From NCBI RefSeq assembly GCF_020520425.1, contig NC_079491.1:34339449-34403448 (forward strand): 64,000 nt of DNA, read 5' to 3'. A program made the position numbers and the translations under genes. Shown in pieces: positions 5,270 to 51,572 of this stretch (within the stretch, counting starts at the first letter, position 1; each line of letters opens with the position of its first letter). The notes under the pieces were generated by a model, which saw nothing but the letters and a program-made list of their open reading frames with translations, ran no database searches and was not told the origin of the DNA. The stretch comes from Spinacia oleracea (Eukaryota; Streptophyta; Magnoliopsida; Caryophyllales; Amaranthaceae).

Positions 5270-8200
5270 TTACAAATTTGTGAACCATTCACTATCTCTC
5301 TTGCTTACATGTTTTGGCAGAACAACCTGAATTCTGCTCTTGACCATTTGCTTCAAATCCTTCATACTCTGACTGACAGTGGGAATGGAATTATCCCAAA
5401 AACTTGTGTTTCTACACCTCCAGATCAGGTAGACAGCAGCACCAACAGCTGCAAAATACACCTGCTTCCTGAACTTTGAAGCTTTACTTTGTCCAGCTTT
5501 TCTGACTAACTGAACCAAATTGCCATGAATAGAGAAACCTATCCACTGATGTACTGCTATAATAATTTGCTTACTATACTGGCACTGAAAGAAGAGATGC
5601 TGATGAGTCTCATCATCCAAGCCACAAATCAAGCAACTAGCAGATTGACTAATGCCTATCTTTGCTAGTTTGTCTGTAGTCTGAAGCTTTGATTGAACAG
5701 CCAACCAACAAATGAATCTATGTTTTGGAATATTCAGCCTATTCCAAACCATTTTGTCCCAATGCACCCTTGGCTTGTCCCCTAGGAGTTTCTCATACAC
5801 TTGTTTCACTGAATAATGAGGCATGTTCTCAAAATCTACACAAGTAAAAAACTGTTTGAGCTGCTCCTTTGTATTGCACACTTGCTTCCAGTACCAGCTA
5901 GCAGTAGAACCAGGCTGATACTCCCACCAATCCCCATCCTTTAAGTAGACTGAATTAATCCACCTAATCCACACATTATCCTGCTTCTTGACTAAAGCCC
6001 AAACATATTTCCCCATAAAGGCAATATTCCACTTCTGAACATCTCTAAACCCCAACCCCCCAGTGTGCTTGTCACTACAGACTTTATCCCAAGCTATGTT
6101 GCTTGGTTTATGACTGAAAGCATGGCCACTCCATAGGAAGGCTCTGCAGATCTTCACTATATCTTGAAGAACACCTTTTGGAAGCACATAAATTTGTGCC
6201 CAATACATGTGCAAACTTAGTAAAACTGAATTAACAAGCTGCATTCTTGCTGTATAGGATAAATTCCTAGAACTCCAAATTTTTATCCTAGTGATCATCT
6301 TATCCACCAAATGAGCACACTGAGCCACAAAGATCTTCTTAGAGCATATAGGGACCCCCAAATATTTGAATGGCAACATACTTCTAGAAAAACCAGAAAC
6401 ATCTACTACCCTCTGAATATCAGATTCATGCATGCCATGACAGTAGATAGAAGATTTTTGCTGATTTGCCTTTAAGCCAGAAGTATTAGAAAACAACTTG
6501 AAAGCTTGAAGCAACAAGTAAATAGACTGATAATCTCCCTTGCTACAGATAATCAAATCATCAGCAAAACATAAGTGAGTAAGACCAATCCCCTTACACC
6601 TTGGATGAAACTGGAACTGATGCATAGAGCTCACTCTATTCAGAATTCTAGACAAATATTCCATGCAAATGACAAATAACAGAGGAGAGATAGGGTCTCC
6701 TTGCCTCAATCCTCTCTTGGATTTAAAGAACCCATGCATAGAACCATTCAGCATCAAAGAAAACATGGGAATAGTAACACATTGCATAACCATATCAAGA
6801 AATTGCTTTGGGAAGTCCAAAAGAACCAGCATCTCCTGTAAGAACTTACAATCAACAGTATCATAGGCTTTTTGAAGATCAATCTTCATAAGGCAGCTAG
6901 GCTTAACCCCTTTCCTCCCATAATGCTTGACTAAATCTTGCACAACCATAATATTATGAACTATGTATCTCCCATGAACAAAACCTCCTTGATTTTCCAT
7001 GATGAGATCATGAAGAACTTGTCTTAATCTCCCACACAAAACTTTTGTTATGCACTTATAAATGGTGTTGCAGCAAGAAATTGGCCTGAACTCACTCACA
7101 TCCTTTGGACATTTAGTCTTGGGAATAAGAGTAATCACAGTGTGGTTCACCTCCTTCAAGATTCTTCCTTGCTGTAACATATCAAGAATGGCTGCAATGA
7201 CTTCATCCCCAACAATATGCAAAGCATCTTTGTAAAAATAAGAGCCAAAACCATCTGGACCAGGAGCTTTAATACCTGGAATGGAGAAAAGAGCCTTCTT
7301 AACTTCATTTGCTGTATAAGGAGCATTGAGTATAGCTTTATGATGATCCAAATAGAATGGCCCCTGCTGCACCACCTCCTTGTTTACTGGTGTTCTATTA
7401 TCAGAAGTACTACCTAGGAGCACTTTATAATAATCCAAAAAAGCTTGGGACACCCCATCAGCTGTATCTTTCCATTCTCCTTGCATATCATAAATGCTAT
7501 ACACTTGGTTCTGTACCTTTCTAGTCTTGATACTCTGATGAAAAAGAGAAGTATTCTCATCTCCATCTTTAAGCCAAGACAATTTTGCTTTCTGACTGAG
7601 GAAAGCCAAATAAGCATTATGTTTCTCCTTATAATCCTGAATTGCAATCAACTCTGCATCTGCAAAACTTTTATCAGAAGGATTATTATGCATTGCAGTT
7701 TGTGCACTCACCATAGTCTGATAAGCTCTCAAATCTGCTGCTTGAATACCTGTAAAACCTACTTTATTCAACTCTTTAAGAGCCAGTTTAACTCTTTTCA
7801 GTTTATTAATCAAAATGAACATTTTAGTGCCAATAAACTGAGTATTCCAAGCCTGCTGAACAATATCAGAAAACACATTTGAAGACTTCCACATAGTAAA
7901 ATACTTAAATGGTTTCTTCCCTCCATCATCTCTGGGAAACACAGAAAGAAGACCAGGAGAGTGATCAAAAAGCCCTTCTGGCATAAAACACACTTCAGCA
8001 ACAGGAAAGCAAGTTTGCCAAGCTTGATTAGCCATAAATCTATCAATTTTTGAAAAAACCTTGTTGTTACCTTGTTGCTTTTTGTTCCAGGTGAAAAGAT
8101 TACCCACACACTTAATGTCCTCCATACCACAAGCATGCATACAATTGCTCACATCCACAACATCTCTATGTCTGACAGGAGCTCCAATTCTTTCATCTAA

Positions 8201-8635
8201 TGCCATAACACAGTTGAAATCCCCACACACAATCCAGGGTTCTTGAGTGTTAAGCAACAACAAATCCCTCCATAGATCTTGTCTCATACCAGCATCATTA
8301 AAAGCATAAACAAAAGTGCAATAAAAGGGTTTCCTACCACTTACAGGAGTAACATGGCAATGAACAAACTGACTGGATGCAGCAACAATGTTAACTGTGA
8401 AGCAACCAGCCTTCCAGGCTACAACTATCCTACCACCAGAGTGGTAGCTAGAGTTGCTAGTAAAGCACCAATTTACAAAAACTTTCTGATAAAGCTTCCC
8501 TAGATTAAAGAGCTTTACCTTATGTTCCAGGAGCCCCACCAAACCCACTGCATACTTCTGAATAAAGTGATTCACCTCATTCTGTTTTTGAATTGAGTTT
8601 AGGCCCCTGACATTCCAAGCTAACACTCTATCCAT
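5270..8635 (-). CDS. LINE ORF2: endonuclease-reverse transcriptase polyprotein
   Basis: An uninterrupted 1121-residue frame. The N-terminal ~230 residues form an APE-like endonuclease: WNVRGLN at the start, EHKVK, GDFNCV and FDHSPG match the family's catalytic blocks. The reverse transcriptase occupies about residues 460-760, with MKIDLQKAYDTVD, GLRQGDPISPLLF and the catalytic FADD near residues 690-693, followed by FKYLGVPI. Around residues 955-1020 is the plant zf-RVT region (HWDKMVWN..., then CLIC...H...C). No RNase H domain is visible, as in the plain plant L1 group. The enzyme would nick the target and copy the element RNA in place. The ATG at 8635 directly precedes the endonuclease motif, so the start is likely right. 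The frame has no stop or shift, so it could still encode protein. Confidence 0.92.
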   Translation of the reverse strand: MDRVLAWNVRGLNSIQKQNEVNHFIQKYAVGLVGLLEHKVKLFNLGKLYQKVFVNWCFTSNSSYHSGGRIVVAWKAGCFTVNIVAASSQFVHCHVTPVSGRKPFYCTFVYAFNDAGMRQDLWRDLLLLNTQEPWIVCGDFNCVMALDERIGAPVRHRDVVDVSNCMHACGMEDIKCVGNLFTWNKKQQGNNKVFSKIDRFMANQAWQTCFPVAEVCFMPEGLFDHSPGLLSVFPRDDGGKKPFKYFTMWKSSNVFSDIVQQAWNTQFIGTKMFILINKLKRVKLALKELNKVGFTGIQAADLRAYQTMVSAQTAMHNNPSDKSFADAELIAIQDYKEKHNAYLAFLSQKAKLSWLKDGDENTSLFHQSIKTRKVQNQVYSIYDMQGEWKDTADGVSQAFLDYYKVLLGSTSDNRTPVNKEVVQQGPFYLDHHKAILNAPYTANEVKKALFSIPGIKAPGPDGFGSYFYKDALHIVGDEVIAAILDMLQQGRILKEVNHTVITLIPKTKCPKDVSEFRPISCCNTIYKCITKVLCGRLRQVLHDLIMENQGGFVHGRYIVHNIMVVQDLVKHYGRKGVKPSCLMKIDLQKAYDTVDCKFLQEMLVLLDFPKQFLDMVMQCVTIPMFSLMLNGSMHGFFKSKRGLRQGDPISPLLFVICMEYLSRILNRVSSMHQFQFHPRCKGIGLTHLCFADDLIICSKGDYQSIYLLLQAFKLFSNTSGLKANQQKSSIYCHGMHESDIQRVVDVSGFSRSMLPFKYLGVPICSKKIFVAQCAHLVDKMITRIKIWSSRNLSYTARMQLVNSVLLSLHMYWAQIYVLPKGVLQDIVKICRAFLWSGHAFSHKPSNIAWDKVCSDKHTGGLGFRDVQKWNIAFMGKYVWALVKKQDNVWIRWINSVYLKDGDWWEYQPGSTASWYWKQVCNTKEQLKQFFTCVDFENMPHYSVKQVYEKLLGDKPRVHWDKMVWNRLNIPKHRFICWLAVQSKLQTTDKLAKIGISQSASCLICGLDDETHQHLFFQCQYSKQIIIAVHQWIGFSIHGNLVQLVRKAGQSKASKFRKQVYFAAVGAAVYLIWRCRNTSFWDNSIPTVSQSMKDLKQMVKSRIQVVLPKHVSKRDSEWFTNL

Positions 8636-14955: not shown

Positions 14956-24980
<10,025 letters not shown>

Positions 24981-25633: not shown

Positions 25634-26277
25634 ACTATCTAGATCTTTAGAGCATGAGTAGTGGTAAGTCACTACCCTACTTACTCACAATCATATATGA
25701 TCTTATCTCTCCTCCACATCATCATCCACATCACTTTCCACTATCTTGAGTCACTGTTATGAGTCACCTCATTTATTTTATTCAATGGTGAGGTTGCCCA
25801 CCACTCTCTCTCCTAATTTTATCAATACCCCACCATTCATTCTCTCTCTTATGTATTACTCCCTCCATTCCCTTTTGTTCTTCCCCTAAAGAATGTTGGG
25901 TGTGGTTTAAGAAAACTGAATCTTGGTTTGTATTGGGATATGAGTAATGATTGGGTGTAAGAATAATGATTGGGTGTAAGAAATTGAATAAAGTAAAGAG
26001 AGAGAAAGTATTTAATTAATAGGGAGAAAAGTAGATATTTTATTAAAGTAATGAAAGAAATCAGCAAAAAATTTCAGTCACATGGGGTATGGGACCCATC
26101 AGCTGTTACATGGACCAATCAGATTTAATCATACAATGACTCACGTTTTTTTTGGCTGGAAATTAAGCCCAAACAATTGATTTCAGTTTTCCCTCCAAAT
26201 TTTCCCCCCAAATAAAAAAACAGGGGATTTTTAATTTCCCTCCAAATTTTTGAGGGGTTGACATAGTGAATTCCCTT

Positions 26278-26285
26278 TATAAATA
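26278..26285 (+). promoter_or_regulatory. TATA box of the mariner transposase
   Basis: TATAAATA lies 128 bp upstream of the transposase ATG, giving an inferred leader of about 95 nt. A CCAAT motif is found near 26113. Confidence 0.5.
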
Positions 26286-26405
26286 GGGTCACTTTCCCCC
26301 CACAAAAGACCAAAATCTGACTTTTACCAAGTTCAATAAATACAAGCAAAACACCAAAATTTATTCCTCAATTCAGCATTAAATAGCAAAAAAACAGGGG
26401 ACTTA

Positions 26406-28052
26406 ATGGCTTCAGATCAAGAGGATGACGATTTCCTCGGATTTTCTGATGATGAAGGCGATGGCATTAACTCCGATTCTGACTCAGAGGTAGGTGATGA
26501 TGCTGCTGACTTGGTACAAGCTTCTCAAAATACTGCTGCTGATTTTGGGGACATTGGGTTTAATGAAGATGTACCAAACAGCACTGAATATGTACAGCAA
26601 GTACCAGAAGTAGAAGGGGAAGGGCAGCAGCAAACTACCAACTTTCAAGAGGTACCATTTCTTTTTGATTTGAACTTTCCACCACCATCAGAAAATGCAT
26701 CACCAATTCATCATCAAACAGCAACACCCAGAACAGATCATCATAAGCCTAGGACTCCTAGAATAAATAATGAATTGAGGCTTGAAATTTTGGTGTACCT
26801 GCTGAATAGAAAAATTCCAGATTCAGAAACTCTTTTGTTTGGGACAATAAGGGATGCAGCCATAGAATTTGATTACAACAGAAAAACCATAGGGTCAATA
26901 TGGGACAAAGCAAAGAAGCAGAAGGCAGCACTGAATTCATATGTGGTGGAAAGTAAGTATCACAAGTGTGGCAGGAAAAAGGTTCAAGTCACATATGACT
27001 CTATTGCACAAATAGCCATGGGGGACAGAACATGCATTGTAGATCTTGCAAGAATTCTCAATTTGGGACCAACAACAGTATGGAGGCTCATCAAGAGGAA
27101 AATTATTAAGCCACACTCAAGTCCCTTGCATCCAGGCATTTCAGATGCATGCAAAATGGCAAGGATGAGGTGGGTACTCAGACTAATAATGGATTACACT
27201 ATACCACAAGAACCAACATATTACAGCATGTATGACTTCATTCATATTGATGAGAAGTGGTTTTATTTGACTCAAAAAAACCAGAGAGTTTATCTTGCAA
27301 ACAATGAACCCTATCCACATAGAAGTGCAAGTTCAAGAACCAAGATACCAAAATTCATGTTCATGGCAGCAGTAGCCAGACCAAGGTGGGGTGAAAATGG
27401 GAATTGTGAATTTGATGGTAAAATAGGCATATTTCCATTCACAAATGCAGTTGCAGCCAAGAGGACATCAAAAAACAGGGTAAAGGGGACCATTGAAACA
27501 AAGCCAGTGAAGTCTGTGAATCAAATTGAAACAAGGGCAATGATGATCAACATGCTAATTCCAGCAATCAAGGCAAAGTGGCCACCACATGAAGGGGAAA
27601 AGGTCATCTATATCATTCAAGATAATGCAAAGGCACATATATTGCAAAATGATCCTGAATGGCAACTACACTACAAACAAGATGGGTTCACTTTTGTGTT
27701 GACTCAACAGCCAGCAAACAGTCCAGATTGCAACATCTTGGACTTGGGATTTTTCAGGTCAATACAATCACTTATGCACAAGAAAATGCCTAAAACTGTG
27801 GAGGACTTAAGTGGAGCAGTGTATGATTCTTTTAATGAGTTGCATCCTAAGACATTGTCTAATGTGTGGATGACATTACAGTTTGTTTCTAATGAGATTC
27901 TAAAACACAAAGGCAACAATGATTACCAACTTCCACACAACAAGAAGAAGATTTTAGAAGATGAAGGCAGACTGCCAGAGCAAGTCAAGGCACCTATATG
28001 GGCAGTTAATGAATGCATGCAACTCTATGATGAATGGAAAGCAAACCAGTGA
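26406..28052 (+). CDS. Mariner-like transposase, DD39D, intact
   Basis: A 548-residue frame with no intron and no lesion. The N-terminal ~110 residues are acidic (DEDD-rich) and low in complexity. Residues ~115-235 contain two helix-turn-helix-like parts (RLEILVYLLNRKIP... and IVDLARILNLGPTTVWRLIKRK), the TIR-binding region. The catalytic aspartates are D282 in HIDEKW, D406 in IIQDNAKAH and D446 in NSPDCNILDLGFF; 39 residues lie between the last two, the DD39D spacing of plant mariner-like elements. The enzyme cuts and pastes at TA. The ATG at 26406 fits the leader and the acidic start. With the nearly perfect TIRs around it, this copy could be functional (inference). It may also act on MITEs with matching ends elsewhere in the window. 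Confidence 0.95.
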   Translation: MASDQEDDDFLGFSDDEGDGINSDSDSEVGDDAADLVQASQNTAADFGDIGFNEDVPNSTEYVQQVPEVEGEGQQQTTNFQEVPFLFDLNFPPPSENASPIHHQTATPRTDHHKPRTPRINNELRLEILVYLLNRKIPDSETLLFGTIRDAAIEFDYNRKTIGSIWDKAKKQKAALNSYVVESKYHKCGRKKVQVTYDSIAQIAMGDRTCIVDLARILNLGPTTVWRLIKRKIIKPHSSPLHPGISDACKMARMRWVLRLIMDYTIPQEPTYYSMYDFIHIDEKWFYLTQKNQRVYLANNEPYPHRSASSRTKIPKFMFMAAVARPRWGENGNCEFDGKIGIFPFTNAVAAKRTSKNRVKGTIETKPVKSVNQIETRAMMINMLIPAIKAKWPPHEGEKVIYIIQDNAKAHILQNDPEWQLHYKQDGFTFVLTQQPANSPDCNILDLGFFRSIQSLMHKKMPKTVEDLSGAVYDSFNELHPKTLSNVWMTLQFVSNEILKHKGNNDYQLPHNKKKILEDEGRLPEQVKAPIWAVNECMQLYDEWKANQ

Positions 28053-28421
28053 AGCAAGGTGAAAACAATTAGATAACTTTTTGTGTTTTGGGGACATGTT
28101 TTTAAATTGACAAGTAAAACCAATGTGTCACTTTTGTAAGCTTAAATGCAAGCATAACATGTAGGCAAAACATTTTGTAAGCATATCTTTTGGAAGCATC
28201 AATGAATGAATCTCATGTTTAAGTTTAGTAAAGTTTTTTTCCATCATTCTTATTCACATCAATGTATAGTAATCAAGGCAAGGCAATAAACATCAAATGA
28301 GTACATAACAAGAACAAGGCAGCATTGGCAGAAAAAGTACAAGGCACAAGAGGTAAGGCAGCATTGGCAACACTATAAACAAGGCAGCATTGGGTTCTTA
28401 AGAACAAGGCAGCATTTGCAA

Positions 28422-28534
28422 TATCACAACTCTAAACACATCGGCTTCAAAATGGAAATAAATAATAATATCACATCATTTTCAGATGGAAATTATTCCC
28501 ATTTTGAAAGCGATGCGTCAAAAGATGTAATTTT
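28422..28534. repeat. Hairpin A1
   Basis: The left arm around 28435-28460 (ACATCGGCTTCAAAATGG) pairs with the right arm around 28494-28519 (CCATTTTGAAAGCGATG). The pairing extends loosely outward to TACATC/GATGTA. The loop holds TCACATCATTTTCAGATGGA, which recurs in hairpin A2. Confidence 0.8.
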
Positions 28535-28619
28535 GACAAAAACAATCAATTCATCATTGATAACACATGGAATATGCCTCACATAAACAAAGATTCATAA
28601 ATATCTCAGAATGTCCCCA

Positions 28620-28722
28620 AAAATCATTGAATCAAACCCTTTCCAATTAAACTTAGCTCCTGAAAAACATCATGGATGCTAATGGTGCATGAGTTTGATT
28701 GAAAAACAAAGGGTTTGACACT
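28620..28722. repeat. Hairpin B1
   Basis: The left arm 28633-28671 starts CAAACCCTTTCC and ends AAAAACATC. The right arm, about 28675-28719, runs from GATGCTAATGGTGCAT to AAAGGGTTTG. The outer 9-10 bp pair perfectly, followed by a bulge and AATTAAACTTAG opposite CATGAGTTTGATT. It is followed by a unit flank ending GACTCATCACAGATCAC. Confidence 0.8.
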
Positions 28723-28775
28723 CATAAAATGAAGACTCATCACAGATCACAAGGCATAAGTACAAAAACTTTTTC

Positions 28776-28884
28776 ACATCACATCTCTAAGCACATCGGC
28801 ATCCAAATGGAAAGAATGCATATCACATCATTTTCAGATGGAAATTCTTCCCCATTGGATGCCGATGTGCCAAAAGATGTAATG
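28776..28884. repeat. Hairpin A2
   Basis: The 14-bp core GCACATCGGCATCC (28791-28804) pairs exactly with GGATGCCGATGTGC (28857-28870). The inner stem continues AAATGGAAAGAA opposite TTCTTCCCCATT. The outer stem is ACATCT opposite AGATGT. The loop is shared with A1. Since both arms differ between A1 and A2 while pairing is kept, the stem looks maintained. Confidence 0.85.
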
Positions 28885-28983
28885 GTAAGGAAACAAGAAC
28901 AAAGCAGCAAAAACAAGGAAGCAATGAACAAGGCAACATCATTGACTCTCAGTTAAGTTGTTTTACATCATTGACAGATTTGT

Positions 28984-29099
28984 TTCTAAATGATTTACAA
29001 CCTCACCACCAATTCACCAAAGGGGATACTAGATCAATCAATGATGTGACATGATCTGTATTCCCTTTGGTGATTGGTGGTGAGGGACATGTTTAGAAT
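28984..29099. repeat. Hairpin C
   Basis: The core CCTCACCACCAATTCACCAA (29001-29020) pairs with TTGGTGATTGGTGGTGAGG (29067-29085) with one bulged base. Stems outside (TTCTAAA with TTTAGAA) and inside (GATCA with TGATC) extend the pairing to about 45 bp. This is the longest and best paired hairpin of the cluster. Confidence 0.88.
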
Positions 29100-29248
29100 C
29101 AAATATCTCAGGTTATCAACACATACATCACAGATCAGAAACACTAACTTCATTGAATATCAGAAACACATTATACATGTTTTGCAATACATGAATTGCC
29201 TCTCCTGTCTAACCTGACATAAGATCTCAGAATGTCCCCAAGCATCAT

Positions 29249-29342
29249 TGACACAAACCCTATCCCCTAACACTTAGCTCCGGAAGAGCATCAATGATGC
29301 TAATGGTGCACAAGTGTTATTGGAACATTGGGTTTGAGTCTC
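29249..29342. repeat. Hairpin B2
   Basis: The left arm 29254-29292 (CAAACCCTATCCCCTAACAC...) pairs with the right arm 29296-29337 (GATGCTAATGGTGCACAAGTG... to GGGTTTG). It is a diverged copy of B1: the inner stem GATGC/GCATC and the CTTAGCTCC opposite TGGTGCA(C/T) feature are kept. It is preceded by TCAGAATGTCCCCAAGCATCATTGA. Confidence 0.82.
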
Positions 29343-29575
29343 AGCAAATGAAAGACTCATCACAGATCAAGCATAACAATATCAATCAACAATGCATCAG
29401 ATCACCATGAACTGATCAAAACATAGGGTTTGAACCTCATCAAATGAAAGACTCATCACAGACCTCCACTGATTCATGGGACATGAAGCATTAAACAGAT
29501 CATTAACATGTAGGGTTTCATTTCTCAGACATATTGACACACATCATTGATCAAGTAGTTTCAATACTATCATAT

Positions 29576-29665
29576 CTTTAACATTCTTCTGCCGAACGGA
29601 ATGATTGATATTCACATTCCATTGTGTGAAATGACATTCACTCCGTTCGACAAAAGAAGTTAAAG
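29576..29665. repeat. Hairpin D
   Basis: The left arm starts CTTTAACATTCTTCTGCCGAA and the right arm ends TTCGACAAAAGAAGTTAAAG. The inner stem is CGGAATGATTGATATTCAC opposite GTGAAATGACATTCACTCCG. The arms are ~40 nt with scattered mismatches and the loop is short. It is not related in sequence to A, B or C. Confidence 0.85.
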
Positions 29666-29761
29666 GACAATTATCAAAACAAAGATCTCAGAATATCAAC
29701 AATCACATCATTGAAGATCACAAACCTCCTAATATTGATCTCAGAATGTCCCCAAGCATCA

Positions 29762-29860
29762 TTGAAACAACTCCAAACCACAAACACTTAGCGCCCGAGA
29801 AATATCATTACTGATACTAATGGCAGCACGAGCATTTGTGGTTAGTTGGACTTGTTCCTC
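29762..29860. repeat. Hairpin B3
   Basis: The left arm 29764-29808 (GAAACAACTCCAAACCACAAAC...) pairs with the right arm 29811-29857 (TGATACTAATGGCAGCACGA... to CTTGTTCC). It is the most diverged B copy, but pairing is preserved by matching changes in both arms. It is preceded by TCAGAATGTCCCCAAGCATCATTGA and followed by AGACTCATCATCGATCACA. Confidence 0.82.
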
Positions 29861-30379
29861 AGCAAAAAAAAGACTCATCATCGATCACAACAAATAAAGG
29901 GACATTATTGTATCCTTAAGGGACATGCTTGGACATTAAGCATTCAACACCAGGCCACACTGAGAGGACTGAAATAACTCAAACCCTATCCCCAAATTAT
30001 ATTCATTTCATGCCTTTACTAATCCAAAACATAGTTATACTGATCAAATCTCATACTCACCAAAGCATCATATTTATCATACACAAAACATACCATAAAA
30101 CAGGGGACATTAAGCCATCAAATCATGTTCATCACACAGACAACATTCCACAAAATTTCATAACCATATGGAAACACCATCATCCAATCATCATTATCAA
30201 TATCAATATCATAACATCATTATCTAACATCAACATCCATACAACTAATCACAACATCATCATCCAAACAACAACACCCCTGGCCAACAACAGATCACAG
30301 TTGTTGGCATCCACCTTATGACTCCACAGCTAGCCAGCATTCAATAAAATGAAAAAAGGGAGAAAGGAGACAGACTTAT

Positions 30380-31565
30380 CTAAGCATCATCAGACGCTGA
30401 AGCCGATTTTTTTCCCTTTTCTCCTTTCTTTGAGGAGGGATAACCAGATGAAAGTTGTCCTGGAGACCCAACAGCATCAGCATTCTCATTTTCACACTCT
30501 CCAACATACACCAGATCAAATGAATCAGACCCACTTGGTTCCTTGCAATCAATAGGGGACAAACAACATGATTAGTGCCATCATAAAATAACAGGGGACC
30601 ATGAATTAAAATCAGATATCATCAAACAACTCAAAATAAAGTGCGAAATAATTTCAGATCACCTAGGTTACCACATGCAATGAGATAAATGAGAGCAAAT
30701 CACACAATAATTCCATTAAAATCCAACTAATTTTCCGAATACATCCAGATCCCATTTTTACCCAAAAATTGTGAAATAAAATCTCAAATACATCCAGATC
30801 CCATTTTTAACCACATGCAATGGGAAAACAGATCAACAAAACACATGAATATTCCGATTTTCTTCAAATAATTTCCAAATAGCTCCAAATAAAATCAGAA
30901 CTCAATTTTAACAACATGCAATGAAAAAACAGAGCACAAAATACAATCAGAACTCAATTTTAACAACATGCAATGAGAAAACAGAGCAAAGAATAACATA
31001 AAAAGCCCGAATGAATCCAACAGATCTCCAAAAAATTCCCAAAAAATTCGAAATAATACCAGATCTGCATTTTTAACACATGCAATGGGAAATCAGACCA
31101 ACTTATCCAAAAAATAATCCGAGTTTAATGAACAATACTCCAAATAAATCCAACATTTATCAAATCCCACTTTTTTAGACATGCAAACAATCATCAAACC
31201 ATTTTAATAACACCGACATCAATAACCCTTAAAAAATCGCAAAAAATCAAAAGTAATACCTCATCGGAATCTCCTTCACCGAAAAAACGCAGATCTGAGG
31301 GAGTGGGTTTCCGATCGTCATATTTTGACTCAACCTCCTCTCCTGGCTCCACTTCCCTCTTCCGAAACCATTCTTCCAAATAGTTTCGAGTACTCGTATT
31401 TTCTTTTTGGGCCAAATACAGATTGTTTTTATATTCGGCGGAGTAGGAATGCTCGTTATTGGGACAGTTGCACTTGGATCCCCAATCACAGTTGGAATCG
31501 GGGATTCTTTGACCAGAAGTTCCCACCCCAGAATCACCTCGAGTTCTAGACAAAGAAGAACCCAT
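30380..31565 (-). CDS. Two-exon cargo gene in the mariner, unknown 155-aa protein
   Basis: Exon 1 is 31565-31260 (102 codons) and exon 2 is 30541-30380 (53 codons plus stop). The 718-bp intron starts GTATTACT and ends TTGCAAG; both junctions are in phase 0. The protein starts MGSSLSR, which fits an N-myristoylation site (Gly2, Ser/Thr at 6; inference). It then has a small cysteine group (C...CNC, residues ~27-34), a charged middle (RNYLEEWFRKRE, KYDDRKPTPSDLRFFGEGDSDE), and a Ser/Lys-rich tail ending SASASDDA. I do not recognise the family. The gene has its own TATA and a CT-rich leader, and faces the transposase tail to tail. It could be a captured host gene or an accessory gene of a mariner lineage. 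The intron has repeated ACATGCAATG(A/G)-containing segments. Confidence 0.55.
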
Positions 31566-31870
31566 AAAGTACCAGAAAAACAGAGATCAGCGACGATTAG
31601 GGACCAAAAAGGGGACAAAAATAGAGGGGATCTGATCGGAAAATGAATCCGAGTAATTTTTATGAACGTTTTTCGGCGAAAACGTTTCAGATTTGCGAGA
31701 TTTGGAGAGGAAAACCCAGATCAGAGGCGGAAAACCTAGGGTTTTCTCAAGAACAGGGGAGGGATTTTAAGAGAGAGAGAGAGTGAAATAAGAGAGAGAG
31801 AGAGATCCGAAGAGGTGAGAGAGAGAAATCAGAATGAGAGGTGAGAGAGGGATTGTGAGATAGGGACGGG

Positions 31871-31878
31871 TTATAAAG
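31871..31878 (-). promoter_or_regulatory. TATA box and CT-rich leader of the mariner cargo gene
   Basis: CTTTATAA on the minus strand lies about 310 bp upstream of the ATG at 31565. It is followed by long CTCTCT tracts (about 31757-31805) and an AAACCCTAGG telo-box-like motif near 31735-31745. These are common in plant gene promoters and leaders, and unexpected in the terminal region of a mariner. Confidence 0.5.
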
Positions 31879-32333
31879 GGAGGGGGGTGGGGTTAGGTTA
31901 ATTAATTAAATAAGGTGGGTGGGGTAAAAGTGGGTGGGAAAGGGTAGAATCTTAGGGTATTTTTTGTAAATAGTGGGGAATCTTAGGGTAAATTGGTAAA
32001 AAAACTATGGCCAAAAATAGTAAAGATTCAGTAGGGGAAGAACAAAAAGAAATGCTAAAAAAGGAAATGGGAAGAACAAAAAGGAATGGAGGGAGTACTA
32101 ATTATTTTTAATTATTGAGCTTACATAATTAATTAATAAAACTAATGACATCGTTAATTATTATTTTTTAATTAAAGCATTTTATTATGTAAGCTATTTA
32201 ATTTATTTATTTTGAATTCGAATGAAAATTAAAATAACATAAAATTTAGATCACATAATTTATAAAACAACGAAATGCATAAACATTTAAAATACAATCT
32301 ACATTAACAACGACTTTGGTCTTCTTAATCTTT

Positions 32334-33725
32334 TCATTCGTTGCCGAAACGACCCCATATATGCTCAACCAAGTCATTTTTTAATGCAATATGGGTCTCC
32401 CTATCACGAACATTATTTCTGTTCGCCATGTAACCACTTAAATTGGGCCTATCTAATCGTCCATTTCTCACGGGAAATGGTTGGTTGTTGTTACCGTTTG
32501 ATGATCCAACTACATTTTGAGGTTGGTCATTGATAAATTCCGATGCATCGTAATGCAAATATCCATCTCGCTCATCTTCGACAATCATATTGTGCATGAT
32601 AATACATGCCATTACGATTTTCCATAAAATTTAATCGACCAAGCTAGACCTGGTTGACGTATTATTGCAAATCGAGCTTGTAACACTCCAAAGGCACGTT
32701 CAACGTCCTTTCGGTAACTCTCTTGCTTCTTGGTAAATAATTTATGCTTACCGGTTTGTGGATGTTTGATTGCTGGGATAAATGTTGCCCATTTTGGATA
32801 GATACCGTCGGTAAGATAATATCCCATATTGTATGTATTTCTGTTGACATTGAAGCTAACATCTGGAGCTCTACCCTCACAAATATCAGAGAACACCGGC
32901 AACCGCTGGAGGACATTTATATCATTACAAGAACCTGGTGTACCAAAGAAAGCATGCCATATCCACAAGTCTTGTGAAGCAACAACCTCTAAGATTATAG
33001 TCGATGTTTTACTTCTCCCTTGATACATTCCTTTCCATGCACGTGGATAATTTTTCCACTCCCAGTGCATGCAATCAATGCTTCCCATCGTATATGCCAG
33101 GAAATCCACGAATATGACTTTCGCGGAGGAGTCGCTCAGTATCCGTAGTATTCTCCCTCCTCAAGTACCCCGGTCCAAATTCAGAGACGACCCCTTCAAC
33201 AAAGTGAGAGAGACATTCCCTTGCAATACTTGATGCGAGTTTAAGATATTTGTCAACTGCATCGGCTGATGTACCGTATGCTAACATTCGAATTGCTGCA
33301 GTGCATTTTTGGAGGGGGGATGCACCTAGTATTCCGGTGGCATCTGGCCTTTGTTGAAAGTAAACATTACTTTCTCTTAACTGGTTAACAATGCGTGTGA
33401 ACACATTTTTACGCATGCGAAATCGTCGGCGAAACATATCGTCTGTGTACAATGGTCGGGGACTAAAGTAGTCGTTATATAGTCGTACATCAGCATCTTC
33501 TCGATCTCTTGGTACATACCCCCTTTGGTACGTAGGTTCAGGAGTGAAGGGGACCTGATAAGTAGAGGTTACCAGGGGAACAACAGATGCATAGATCGCT
33601 TCCTCGATCAATTCATCTTCTTTTCGCCTTTCAGTAATTGATTCATGCCACTCTACAAAGTCGTTCACCATGTAGTCAAATAACCCTGAACTAGATGAAC
33701 TAGAAGAATTTGAATCAGAGTTCAT
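32334..33725 (-). pseudogene. PIF/Harbinger transposase (DDE_4), two frameshifts
   Basis: Three frames together give a complete transposase. Residues 1-216 (33725-33075) start MNSDSN with a Ser run, then the conserved N-terminal region with an HTH-like part (LQKCTAAIRMLAYG...). The next frame, 33109-32612, holds catalytic blocks SIDCMHW, YYLTDGIYPKW and DVERAFG, matching the D-D-E of this superfamily. The last, 32612-32334, starts MACIIMHNMIVEDERD and gives the C-terminus. The first break is near 33089-33095, where four extra bases split GFPG from MGSIDC. The second is one missing base near 32616-32620. The enzyme would normally work with the Myb-like protein encoded upstream. Here it is inactive. 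Confidence 0.9.
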
Positions 33726-36247: not shown

Positions 36248-37043
36248 TTAGTGACTTTGCAAGTTCCTACTTATCTTGTTAAAAGTTGTACTCTTTTCGT
36301 CCTCTTTTTGTTCTTTATGTTTGGTACTTTTCACGCGTTTTAACGGTTAATTAATTTGCATCGAGATTCCTCAATTTTTTTATTTAAGCAAGAAAAATTA
36401 CGTTTATTTATAATTTTTTCACTTTTATCAAAATTCTGATATTGGGAAATGAGAAAATTTTAATGCCCCAATGGAAAAGTGTGAGAGTCTAAATGACTCA
36501 ATAAATTTAATTAGTTAAAATAATAATTGGACACAAATTTTGATAGAATACTAAGTCATTTATGTGATAATATAAAAGGAAATGTAAAATTTTGAAATAC
36601 CCAAAAAGGAAAACGTAAAGAACAAAAAGAGACGGAGGGAGTACGTAATTGCTATTTAGATGTTTAGTTATTATTGCCAATTACTACATTAGCTCATATC
36701 TCGACCGATTAATCACTAATCATATCATAATCAACAGTTAATCATACTTTAATTATTTTAATTAATTAATAAATTTAAAAATAAAAATAAAATTTTGTAT
36801 TTTTTAAAAAAAATCATAAATATTTCATAATCAACATTTAATCATACTTTAAGTTTTTTTAAAATTAAATTTTATTAATTAAGTAGAATAGTTAAAATAT
36901 GATTAACGGTTGATTATGATATGATCAGTGACTAGTTATCCGAAATATGGGCTAAGGTAGTAATTGACAACAATAACTAAACCCCTGCGTAAGTAATTGA
37001 CAACTTTTAACAAGTTAGGTAGTAATTTGCAAAGTCACTAATG
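36248..37043. repeat. Long fold-back sequence holding a MITE
   Basis: The left arm starts TTAGTGACTTTGCAA at the right border of the Harbinger, and the right arm ends TTTGCAAAGTCACTAA. Between them GTTAAAAGTTG/CAACTTTTAAC, TTTAGTTATT/AATAACTAAA, and TAATCATATCATAATCAAC with its inverse pair in order. The whole 0.8 kb can fold into one long stem, interrupted on the left by the MITE at 36291-36641. It could be a fold-back transposon whose left end coincides with the Harbinger target TTA. Confidence 0.6.
36291..36641. mobile_element. Mariner-derived MITE, 351 bp
   Basis: TA flanks at 36289-36290 and 36642-36643. The right end, inverted, reads CTCCCTCCGTCTCTTTTTGT, and the left end reads CTCTTTTCGTCCTCTTTTTG. 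Both go on into GTTCTTTA, resembling the termini of the autonomous mariner at 25859-32095 (CTCCCTCCATTCCCTTTTGTTCTT). It is homologous along its length to the MITE at 40790-41183. Confidence 0.85.
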
Positions 37044-41290: not shown

Positions 41291-41860
41291 AGGGGGCGCT
41301 CTACAACTTATCTAAACTTATTTGAACTTATTTGAACTTATTGGATCTTATTTGAACTTATTGGAACTGATCAAACCTGAATGGAACTGATAGGACCTTA
41401 TTATTAATAATAAATTAATTAGTAATAATTAATAATAAAAACAATAATAATAATTAATAGTTAATAGTTAATAATAATAATAATAATAATATTAATAATA
41501 ATAACAATACAAATTATAATATTAAATATATATAATAAAAAATATAATAATTATAATATTAATAAATAATTATACTTAATAATTATTATTAATATTAGTA
41601 ATTATTATAATTATAATAACAAATATTACTAATATTAATATTAATATAATTAATTATAAATATATTATTAATAATTAAAAATAATAATTAATACTCCGTG
41701 AAATTAATAATAACAATAATATTTTAATAACAACAATAATTAATTATAGTTAATAATAATAATAAAAAATAATATATAATTATATTAAATATACTTATTA
41801 ATAATAATATTCATTAATTATAATTATTATTAATAATAATTAATAATATTAACAGTAGTA

Positions 41861-41899
<39 letters not shown>

Positions 41900-42060
41900 T
41901 AATAATAATAATAATAAAAATATTAAAACTTATTGGACCTGAAACTTATTTAGAATTATCTGAGGTTATCGGAAGTTATCTGAGGTTATTGGAAGTTATC
42001 TGAACTTATCTGAACTTAATGAACTTGAAACTTTTTTTTAAGGTGAACATAACACCCCCT
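41291..42060. mobile_element. AT-rich inverted-repeat element with (AAT)n
   Basis: The ends AGGGGGCGCTCTAC and ATAACACCCCCT are imperfect inverted repeats. Both subterminal parts consist of repeated TTATCTGAACTTATTGGA-like units, as in the element at 38798-40362. The middle ~500 bp is almost only A and T, with long AAT/ATT microsatellite tracts. There is no coding potential. Confidence 0.6.
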
Positions 42061-49721: not shown

Positions 49722-51572
49722 ATGTCGATTCCTCCCTTCTCCCTCCAATGAGTTGTTAGGCGCTGGTTAAGAGCCCTTAATCCCACATAAAAGGCTTTGT
49801 TGAAAGGATACCACTTAGAGGCACTCTTAGGCTTACAAAAAATTAATATTGATTATAATTTTCTGTATGCGGCCCTGGACTTTTGGGATTCTGATCACCA
49901 TGTTTTTGTCTTTCGGGGCAATGAAGTATGCCCTTTGCCAGATGAATTTGCCGTGATCCTTGGTTATCCTACCAACGCTACTCCTGCTACCCCTGGCACT
50001 GTTGAAGAGGGTAAAACAACCATAAGGGATTTCCTAGGACTAGATGCTAATATGCTCGCTGAGATCGTTGTGGGTGATAAGGTTAATTTGGCAAAGCTTG
50101 TAAAACATCACTTTAGACCTAGTAAAAATATGACCGAACAGAAATTGAATATTCGAGCACTTGTATTCTGCCTGTTGAACCACTATTTACTGTCGAATAA
50201 CAATGGCGATTTCGGTGACATAAGGTTGATCCCTTTGATCAGCCAGATGGAGAGTTGCTATTCCATTATGCCGTTGGTTGTTGCCGAGACCTTACTGAAT
50301 GCGGATGAGTTGAAAAAGGATGCCAAGTCTGAAATTTTTAAGGGGAGCCCCTTATTGCTGCAGGTAATCGATCGTTTATTCGCGCAAAGTAATACGCCTA
50401 TTTTTTCTTTTTCTTTCCTTTTTTCGTTTGCCTCGACAGCCCCCTGCCTGGAGCTGATTTTCAGTGCCCAGAGCTGGGCGTCGGAATTTCTGGCGCCTGG
50501 TCCTGGGCGTTGAAAGTGCGCCCCAGGCAGGACTTTCGTTTTTTTTTTTTTTTTTTTTTTTTCTGATCGTACCCGTTTTTTTTGCAGATTTGGCTCATGA
50601 AACAACTTAGGCTTTTAGAAGCTCCTGCGGATCCTAAACGTTATCGCCCTATAGCCTTGGGTAACCGAAAGTATTTGCACCAAGGCCAGGACGAGGCCGA
50701 GTGGGCCTCCTATTTTACTCATGGCATATGCTCTATTAAGTGGGTGGTACCGTGGTGGTGTTTGACTAATATGACGGGGGGTTCCGAGGCACTAGTTTAT
50801 GTTTCTTGGTTGGGGCTATCTCAGCCTGTTTACATCTTTCCTTACCGGGTCATGCGACAGTACGGCTTAAGGCAGACTATCCGATTTTCCGATACGGTAC
50901 CACCTAAAGTAGAGGTATTTTCCTAAGCACGGGTTCGAGCGTGGGCTAAGTATTACGGTGGTCTCCCGCGTTGGACCGTGGCTAGAGATGCCTTTGTGGG
51001 TCTTTCGAAAACTACAAGTTGTGGATGAGTTCTGATGATAAGGCTGTGAGAACTAAGGCTCGAAATGAAGAGCCGACTGAGCTTTTGATACCTCGAGGTA
51101 GGGCAAGTATGAGAGCCGTGATACTGCTAATCCTCGCGATCATGGTATTAAGACTGTAAAAGCTCGTCCTGATCGAAAGCGAAAAGAAGTTCCTCCCCGT
51201 TCCAGTTCTATGCCTAAAAAGGTGCTTAACACGAAGGGGCCTGCCGTTCACAAAAGAAATGCAAGCTCTCGCGGAGATCGTCGCCGGAATAATGTATGGG
51301 TTAGGAAAGTTCAGCCCCTAGTAGAACCAATGGCTAATCCAATTGATGTTGATAATCCTCCCCCTCCCATTGTTTGTGCCCTTGAGGCTGAGCGGGCTAT
51401 AGCTGTTCAAACTGAAAATGTTTCTGAGGCCTTGGCATCCTTGGAAGTTAGTGTCAAGGAGCCTGTTCTTATGGAGATTGATATAGAGGCAGTGCAGAAG
51501 CCTGTGGAGGTGGACCCTGCGAACATTGCCCTCTACAACACTTTATTTGATGATCCGGAAGAACTCGAGTAG
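49722..51572 (+). pseudogene. Antisense ORF of the retrotransposon, plant-mobile-domain type
   Basis: Exon 1 (49722-50363) starts ATG at 49722; it contains RWLRALNP, YHLEALLGLQKINIDYNFL, ALDFWDSDHHVF and CPLPDEFAVILGYP. Exon 2 begins at 50588 after an intron 50364-50587 (GTAATC...TTTTGCAG), with IWLMKQLRLLEAP and IALGNRKYLHQGQDEAEWASYF. The last part, to 51572, is basic then acidic (KKVLNTKGPAVHKRNASSRGD...). The middle resembles the plant mobile domain/DUF7745 family found in transposons. It runs opposite to the retrotransposon, between its coding region and 3' LTR, as the extra antisense ORFs of Tat-lineage elements do. Stops at TGA (~49749) and TAA (49788), TAA near 50924, and frame changes near 51015 and 51108 show decay. 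The intron holds a palindromic module (50458-50515). Confidence 0.7.
50458..50515. repeat. Paired GC palindrome module, locus 3 (intron of antisense ORF)
   Basis: TTTCAGTGCCCAGAGCTGGG and TCTGGCGCCTGGTCCTGGGC, each followed by CGT-type closing bases. It lies inside the antisense ORF's intron, so insertion or retention there was tolerated. Confidence 0.78.

Follow-up and report, generated by a model that had tools for sequence, protein, structure and literature searches.

Introduction

Small-RNA hairpins and transposons are linked in several known systems. The miR-548 hairpin derives from MADE1, a palindromic mariner MITE. Polycistronic plant MIR clusters hold several stem-loops in one orientation and show tandem duplication of units; they are not known as a conserved transposon module. 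In Arabidopsis, VANDAL transposons reportedly counter silencing with a protein factor of their own, VANC. To our knowledge, few transposon-encoded small RNAs act on the host, miR820 being the clear plant case. It is carried by rice CACTA elements and targets OsDRM2 (PMC3459959). miRNA-like structures are furthermore common in maize transposable elements, Tc1-Mariner included (PMC10760457). For a mariner with a hairpin array, no description was found in the open-licence literature (titles and abstract starts).

Here, we analyse a 64,000-nucleotide stretch of the Spinacia oleracea genome (NC_079491.1, positions 34,339,449 to 34,403,448), hereafter the window. Within it, a mariner carries seven stem-loops at 28415-29862, which fall into four families (A1/A2, B1-B3, C and D). 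We consider it probable, though with considerable doubt, that they form a transposon-borne, MIR-like hairpin cluster on a minus-strand transcript, with putative small RNAs acting in trans. The wide occurrence of such arrays in the genome and their reading from the minus strand are new with respect to the original prediction, which was made from the letters of the window.

The mariner element and its two genes

Plant mariner-like elements (Tc1/mariner, DD39D) have terminal inverted repeats (TIRs) that begin with CTCCCTCC and a TA target duplication. The window element has such TIRs and a flanking TA. Its left end reads TA followed by CTCCCTCCATTCC... at 25857, and the inverse ends at 32097. The parts of the element other than the hairpins are:

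25857..32097, plus strand: whole mariner, flanking TA at both ends, TIRs at about 25859-25885 and 32069-32095
26406..28052, plus strand: transposase, 548 aa, open and intact
about 30380..30541, minus strand: inferred exon 2 of ORF2, splice sites by eye
31260..31565, minus strand: exon 1 of ORF2 (second gene, convergent), start ATG at 31565

The transposase motifs HIDEKWF, IQDNAKAH and NILDLGFF, identified by eye, are presumably those of a DD39D enzyme. Pfam gave weak matches below cut-off only, mostly to helix-turn-helix families, a PDB sequence search gave no match, and no relatives were found in viral and bacterial collections. ORF2 likewise matches no Pfam family above cut-off. Its exon 1 frame breaks near the exon end in one of five copies (L025); the exon 2 frame is kept in five copies and matched in two diverged relatives, L035 and L038. 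Because the exons are closer to L038 (95.1% and 90.3% identical) than the intron is (79.8%), ORF2 looks like a real gene. The original prediction described an apparently intact mariner with a polycistronic-like block between two convergent genes. The TIRs, the TA at both ends and the open transposase agree with the first part of this description. The second part holds as an arrangement, with the array in one orientation between the transposase (plus strand) and ORF2 (minus strand).

A PIF/Harbinger transposase gene (32334-33725, minus strand; Plant_tran, E 4e-76) adjoins the mariner on the right, and the mariner may be nested in this neighbouring element. Elsewhere in the window, a 1121-aa open frame at 5270-8635 (minus strand) resembles a LINE endonuclease/reverse transcriptase by eye, and exon-like frames at 15272-17963 (minus strand) resemble a CDC48-type AAA ATPase, also by eye.

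Folding of the hairpins

Each hairpin interval was folded on both strands and compared with 200 dinucleotide shuffles. The hairpins and their z-scores are:

28415..28540, minus strand: hairpin A1, z -9.2 (plus strand -4.8), A-family covariation
28628..28722, minus strand: hairpin B1, z -3.8 (plus strand -5.2), the weakest, fails the plant duplex rule
28770..28890, minus strand: hairpin A2, z -11.2 (plus strand -8.7), A-family covariation
28972..29110, minus strand: hairpin C, z -9.0 (plus strand -10.1), the minus-strand value for 28985-29105
29250..29341, minus strand: hairpin B2, z -4.3 (plus strand -4.8), conserved motifs flank the stem
about 29371..29509, minus strand: possible eighth, weaker hairpin
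29558..29680, minus strand: hairpin D, z -10.2 (plus strand -8.2)
29763..29858, minus strand: hairpin B3, z -5.8 (plus strand -3.5)

In each of the 14 folds, 0/200 shuffles were as stable as the real sequence. Folding of each interval, which the original prediction had proposed as a check on its seven imperfect hairpins in four families, thus returns all seven as imperfect hairpins that fold far better than shuffles. Hairpin C itself folds with no strand preference, because its z is also low on the plus strand (-10.1 versus -9.0). When 150 nt of context are added, the B hairpins stand out less, at z -2.6, -2.3 and -3.8, with 4, 3 and 0 of 200 shuffles as good.

A scan of the window that is neutral to strand, treating G-T and A-C alike, was compared with 10 shuffled windows. 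Nine stems exceed the best shuffled stem (21.0), among them hairpins A1, A2, C and D at 26.0-34.5. None of B1-B3 is among the 60 listed of 64 stems, so the B family is to be judged by comparison between loci. Other inverted repeats above the shuffle maximum lie at 20422-20592, 36737-36907, 41491-41661, 41785-41927 and 50443-50531; these five are possibly MITEs or AT-rich palindromes. The division into four families holds, although by eye hairpins C and D have a similar base of the stem (TGAGATnTTTG...TGTCC on the 5' side), which suggests one scaffold with different duplexes.

Near-identical copies of the array

The genome searched comprises 894,210,420 bases in 242 contigs, and the six contigs with loci measure 115-189 Mb. 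Hairpin A2 has 352 candidate places, and the 40 of them that were scored are 97-100% identical; another 40 of 80 rows are the opposite arms of these. Among the best 79 of 695 transposase candidates, amino acid identity is 93-100% and 70/79 lack an internal stop. Twenty of the 39 other A2 copies, all chosen by hairpin A2, were analysed whole. Both TIRs with TA are present in 17/20, and an intact transposase frame is present in 15/20, suggesting recent activity. All seven hairpin types were matched in 19/20; A1 is missing in L017, and L011 is cut within B3. A tandem duplication adds an extra B2 and D in 11/20 copies (L013-L023). The array is part of a recently spread family and is able to grow by duplication. 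Copies and relatives were picked via hairpin motifs, and these counts are no measure of the share of mariners without an array.

Compared with a near subfamily (L025), the window has 5/792 changed bases in the hairpins, 8/1173 in the spacers up to ORF2 and 74/1647 in the transposase gene. Between near subfamilies, hairpins and intervening spacers are both >99% identical, and this likeness possibly stems from recombination.

The state of the family also bears on the idea that the hairpins are substrates for host silencing of the element, giving hairpin siRNAs and no benefit to the element. In maize, miRNA-like structures in transposable elements correlate with small RNAs and methylation (PMC10760457), as this idea would have it. 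A harmful feature should vanish, yet here pairing is kept and arrays have expanded, and many transposase copies of the family are open (the 70 of 79 scored, best of 695). We therefore regard silencing substrates of this kind as improbable.

Diverged mariners with related arrays

The 3' flank of B is conserved, and a pattern built on it, with the known B arms excluded, gave 10 matches against 0 in the control. Five of six loci from these matches resemble the element and carry hairpins; one B-flank match, L033, has no similarity to the element. Measured over tblastn pieces, transposase identity to the window is 77-91% for most of the protein in L035 (one piece 51%), 63% in L034, 55-58% in L030, 49% in L037 (one further piece 45%) and 29-30% in L036. 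L038 has no transposase in the stretch examined, and its ORF2 is at 89-95%. ORF2 of L035 is at 43-79%, and an ORF2 match was sought in L036, L037, L034 and L030 with none found. The stem-loops of the diverged relatives lie downstream of the transposase and in L038 adjoin ORF2, as in the window.

Strand-neutral hairpin counts are 12 in L035, 10 in L036, 3 in L037, 7 in L038, 3 in L034, 2 in L030 and 5 in the window, a total of 42 in 7 loci against 3-12 in 20 shuffled sets. Five more loci, found via A, C and D target patterns and each covering about 3 kb, contribute 47 hairpins. Not all of these need lie within the spacer, and three of the loci (L041, L042 and L044) seem to belong to a single family. 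The B flank motif itself has 383 genome sites at up to 2 mismatches, versus 0 for the reversed control.

As judged from these sequences, the array is an inherited, reshuffled module in several diverged mariners. In L036, hairpins B and D share 77-85% identity with those of the window despite a transposase at about 29%. Simple descent therefore fits badly, and exchange of the hairpin module between mariner families seems more likely. The original prediction also treated the hairpins as borne by the element and not as scattered insertions, and the presence of the array in near-identical copies and in diverged mariners supports it. The ends of the A1 and A2 duplicates, which lie near the stem ends, might be taken to mean that every hairpin entered the mariner separately, as a MITE of its own. 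The common flanks of B1-B3 outside the stem, the arrays downstream of the transposase in diverged mariners and the leaning of the hairpins to one strand make this hardly credible.

Strand of the array

Where selection maintains a stem as RNA, G-U pairs are tolerated on the transcribed strand only. The seven window hairpins have 31 G-U wobbles on the minus strand versus 8 on the plus strand. The 42 strand-neutral hairpins of the 7 loci have 210 versus 85, and the second set (47 hairpins of 5 loci) has 217 versus 80. As a control, 60 other window hairpins show 226 versus 235, and two non-array loci in arbitrary orientation show 10 v 9 and 8 v 20. Taken singly, the window, L035, L036, L038 and L030 show the bias, and two loci, L037 (7 v 6) and L034 (4 v 4), do not. 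G-U sites are not independent, so that small p-values derived from these counts are overstated. The excess on the minus strand points to an RNA read in the direction of ORF2, not of the transposase, and indicates that pairing is maintained in the RNA of this strand.

Strand-biased mutation could be behind part of the G-U excess. A further reading would dispense with selection on RNA altogether: DNA-level correction of imperfect palindromes in replication would maintain the pairing, and strand-biased mutation in the transcribed region would give the G-U bias. The spacer is indeed T- and G-rich on the minus strand, and if mutation alone gave 66% minus wobbles, the window's 31 v 8 would have p = 0.05. 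Correction against a template, however, should not leave wobbles on one strand. Moreover, six other loci, when their 37 hairpins are pooled, show the bias again, as do the 47 hairpins of the second set of five loci, and the other hairpins of the window do not have it. We consider a purely DNA-level origin very improbable.

Selection on pairing

Covariation was measured on minus-strand alignments, with partners slid or shuffled (500 times) as control. Standard pairs make up 92.6-95.1%, versus 35-54% with partners slid. Both sides changed in 11/26 pairs in B (15 sequences), 9/45 in A (6 sequences), 6/46 in C (4 sequences) and 7/44 in D (8 sequences). The corresponding numbers of cells, 47, 14, 8 and 13, compare with shuffled means of 19.1, 6.3, 3.5 and 6.8; the structures were derived from these very alignments, and the relatedness of rows makes the counts too high. 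The pair number was reached by 0 (B), 1 (A), 11 (C) and 55 (D) of 500 shuffles, and the cell number by 0, 0, 0 and 1. For D with 5 sequences, there is no excess of co-changed pairs (316/500 shuffles reach it).

A two-sequence test compared the window with L038 over six hairpins (B1 left out, B2 unchanged). Here, 9/269 stem pairs changed on both sides and 9/9 are still paired, against an expectation of 2.2 (permutation p 5e-5). Hairpin C accounts for six of these pairs. Among one-sided changes, the pair is kept in 10/24. Both the covariation and the L038 pairs speak for the earlier suggestion that arms changed in both halves with pairing kept, and hence for selection on structure. We take the pairing of the hairpins to be under RNA-level selection, the signal being weaker for D.

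Evolution of the hairpin parts

Different parts of the hairpins change at different rates. In B, identity is 84.3% in the tip and 83.8% in the 3' flank, 73.5% in the 5' flank, and 60.3% and 68.5% in the lower stem arms. In A, the tip is at 92.7% and the arms are at 77.7% and 84.9%. The 5' arm of C is lowest (69.6%), and its 3' arm (82.4%) equals its tip (83.0%). D differs in that its 5' arm is the most conserved part (84.3%). In plain sequence, hairpins are not conserved above spacers with respect to L038 (92.4% v 95.1%): substitutions number 59/781 in hairpins and 32/650 in spacers (p 0.05), and gapped bases number 12 and 146, respectively. Purifying selection on the plain hairpin sequence was discarded, as the hairpins are less conserved than the spacers in this comparison. 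Together with the compensated change in the arms, the low identity relative to spacers indicates that the shape is kept and the arm sequence moves. Arms change no less than tips in families A, B and C, and pairing is kept, which would fit a fixed scaffold with changing guides.

In plant MIR genes, loops usually vary most and conserved tips are unusual. Hence, the main rival to a small-RNA cluster is a decoy or protein-binding RNA. The array might work as folded RNA and not through small RNAs: it could act as a sink or decoy that occupies Dicer-like proteins or others that bind dsRNA, or it could form a protective tail on the ORF2 transcript. Sequence conservation in the tips of A and B, and in the B 3' flank, is as if a protein reads the tip, the arrays are long with many hairpins, and near-perfect targets were not found in the screens described below, which catch part of the possible sites. 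The fast, compensated change in long duplex arms, on the other hand, is more than a decoy would need, and we hold a folded-RNA function to be unlikely, if less so than the other alternatives.

Duplex, Rfam and target screens

The plant MIR duplex rule asks for a 21-22 nt duplex with at most 5 mismatches, of which at most 3 asymmetric. In the window, 6/7 hairpins pass (B1 fails), as does the eighth hairpin. In a set of 39 hairpins, 36/39 pass on the minus strand and equally 36/39 on the plus strand, and 17-51% of shuffles pass as well. As proof of MIR identity, the rule was rejected because it is too permissive, with both strands and shuffles passing. At gathering score, Rfam has 0 matches in the 64 kb; a permissive search gives 14 sub-threshold matches, most of them to miRNA families, the best at 31.5 bits versus a gathering score of 100. 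A search of open-licence literature text for arm sequences (five 15-mers and one 14-mer, written as RNA and as DNA) gave no paper.

Near-perfect target sites were sought genome-wide with A, C and D patterns. Since the patterns barred certain flank letters so as to pass over the hairpins, these screens catch only part of the possible sites. The D pattern has 2 matches in the genome, one being a D hairpin and the other without a long frame over the site. The A pattern has 27, whose letters suggest that they are arms of hairpins in other copies; both loci analysed turned out to be arrays. With both arms excluded, the A pattern leaves 1 match, about 0.7-1.2 kb from B motifs. The C pattern has 353 matches in the genome (reversed control 4), and the two best are arrays. 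Nearly all C matches listed belong to one LTR-like repeat that looks non-coding (by eye, in one copy), and they were taken as chance and dropped as targets. None of the A, C and D matches makes a convincing target.

Targets within the element and its surroundings were screened with guide 21-mers. Against nine mariner gene regions, 4024 guide 21-mers gave 98 matches versus 62 in the reversed control, which is not convincing, with a best penalty of 2.5. Scanned over the window, 21-mers gave 103 matches outside the hairpins, again with 2.5 as the best; those inspected are mostly low-complexity or partial B copies. A period of three in arm variation, as if guides tracked target codons, gave p 0.65 for A, 0.054 for C and 0.021 for D; this comparison was post hoc and no claim is made from it.

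Apart from the screens, we observed a dispersed multicopy AGO gene fragment: in addition to AGO-like genes, the genome has numerous short Argonaute (Piwi) fragments. These have a common layout, with a 91-aa frame and matches to profile positions 240-274 and about 212-255, with examples at C1:60680773, C4:109638944, C6:54856279, C6:21395294, C4:172149851 and C2:53698551.

A spinach miRNA study dropped tags mapped to repeats and limited novel miRNAs to at most 20 genomic copies (PMC9029227). These filters would probably have removed the array loci described here. Public small-RNA and degradome data could test the reading of the array once multi-mapping reads are kept.

Model and comparison with known systems

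The anatomy of the locus fits a polycistronic small-RNA precursor downstream of ORF2. A minus-strand transcript would start near the right TIR, run through ORF2 and carry the stem-loop array as part of one RNA, with 7 stem-loops in the window, 9 in many copies and 10 or more in some relatives. Dicer-like enzymes might then cut the stem-loops into small RNAs, as with plant MIR clusters. Once loaded, the small RNAs could act on targets in trans; going by precedent, host silencing would be the most plausible target. Such an action would help the element to stay active. If so, a mariner lineage with structure-conserved multi-hairpin arrays and many near-identical copies in a crop would turn an anecdote into a system.

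More tentatively, and in our view rather less probably than the small-RNA cluster as such, this could be an autonomous mariner lineage with an expandable array of structure-locked hairpins that is exchanged between families (transposases down to 29%), its scaffold of flanks and tips constant and its duplexes fast-changing. An exchanged, expandable array of this kind would give a transposon its own re-programmable bank of small-RNA genes.

Among the known systems, MADE1/miR-548 is also a mariner-derived hairpin, but there the source is a MITE, whereas here the array lies inside an autonomous element. In VANDAL/VANC, anti-silencing is based on a protein; ORF2 of the spinach element belongs to no known family. 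With polycistronic plant MIR clusters, the spinach array has in common stem-loops of about 85-150 nt, one orientation and tandem duplication. It differs from them in being a conserved module in a transposon, and the loops of such clusters usually vary most. In contrast to the hairpin regions of maize transposable elements, it is a conserved multi-hairpin array with covariation, features that the available part of the maize study does not describe (PMC10760457). As in miR820/CACTA, which sets the precedent for a transposon small RNA directed against host silencing, a DNA transposon carries a MIR-like stem-loop (PMC3459959). In both cases sequence changes and pairing is kept, in miR820 between the miRNA and its target (PMC3459959). 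Unlike the array described here, miR820 has one precursor type with five copies in Nipponbare and resembles its target gene (PMC3459959); in the spinach mariners each element carries 7-10 or more hairpins, which belong to several families, and the genome has 383 B-type flank sites.
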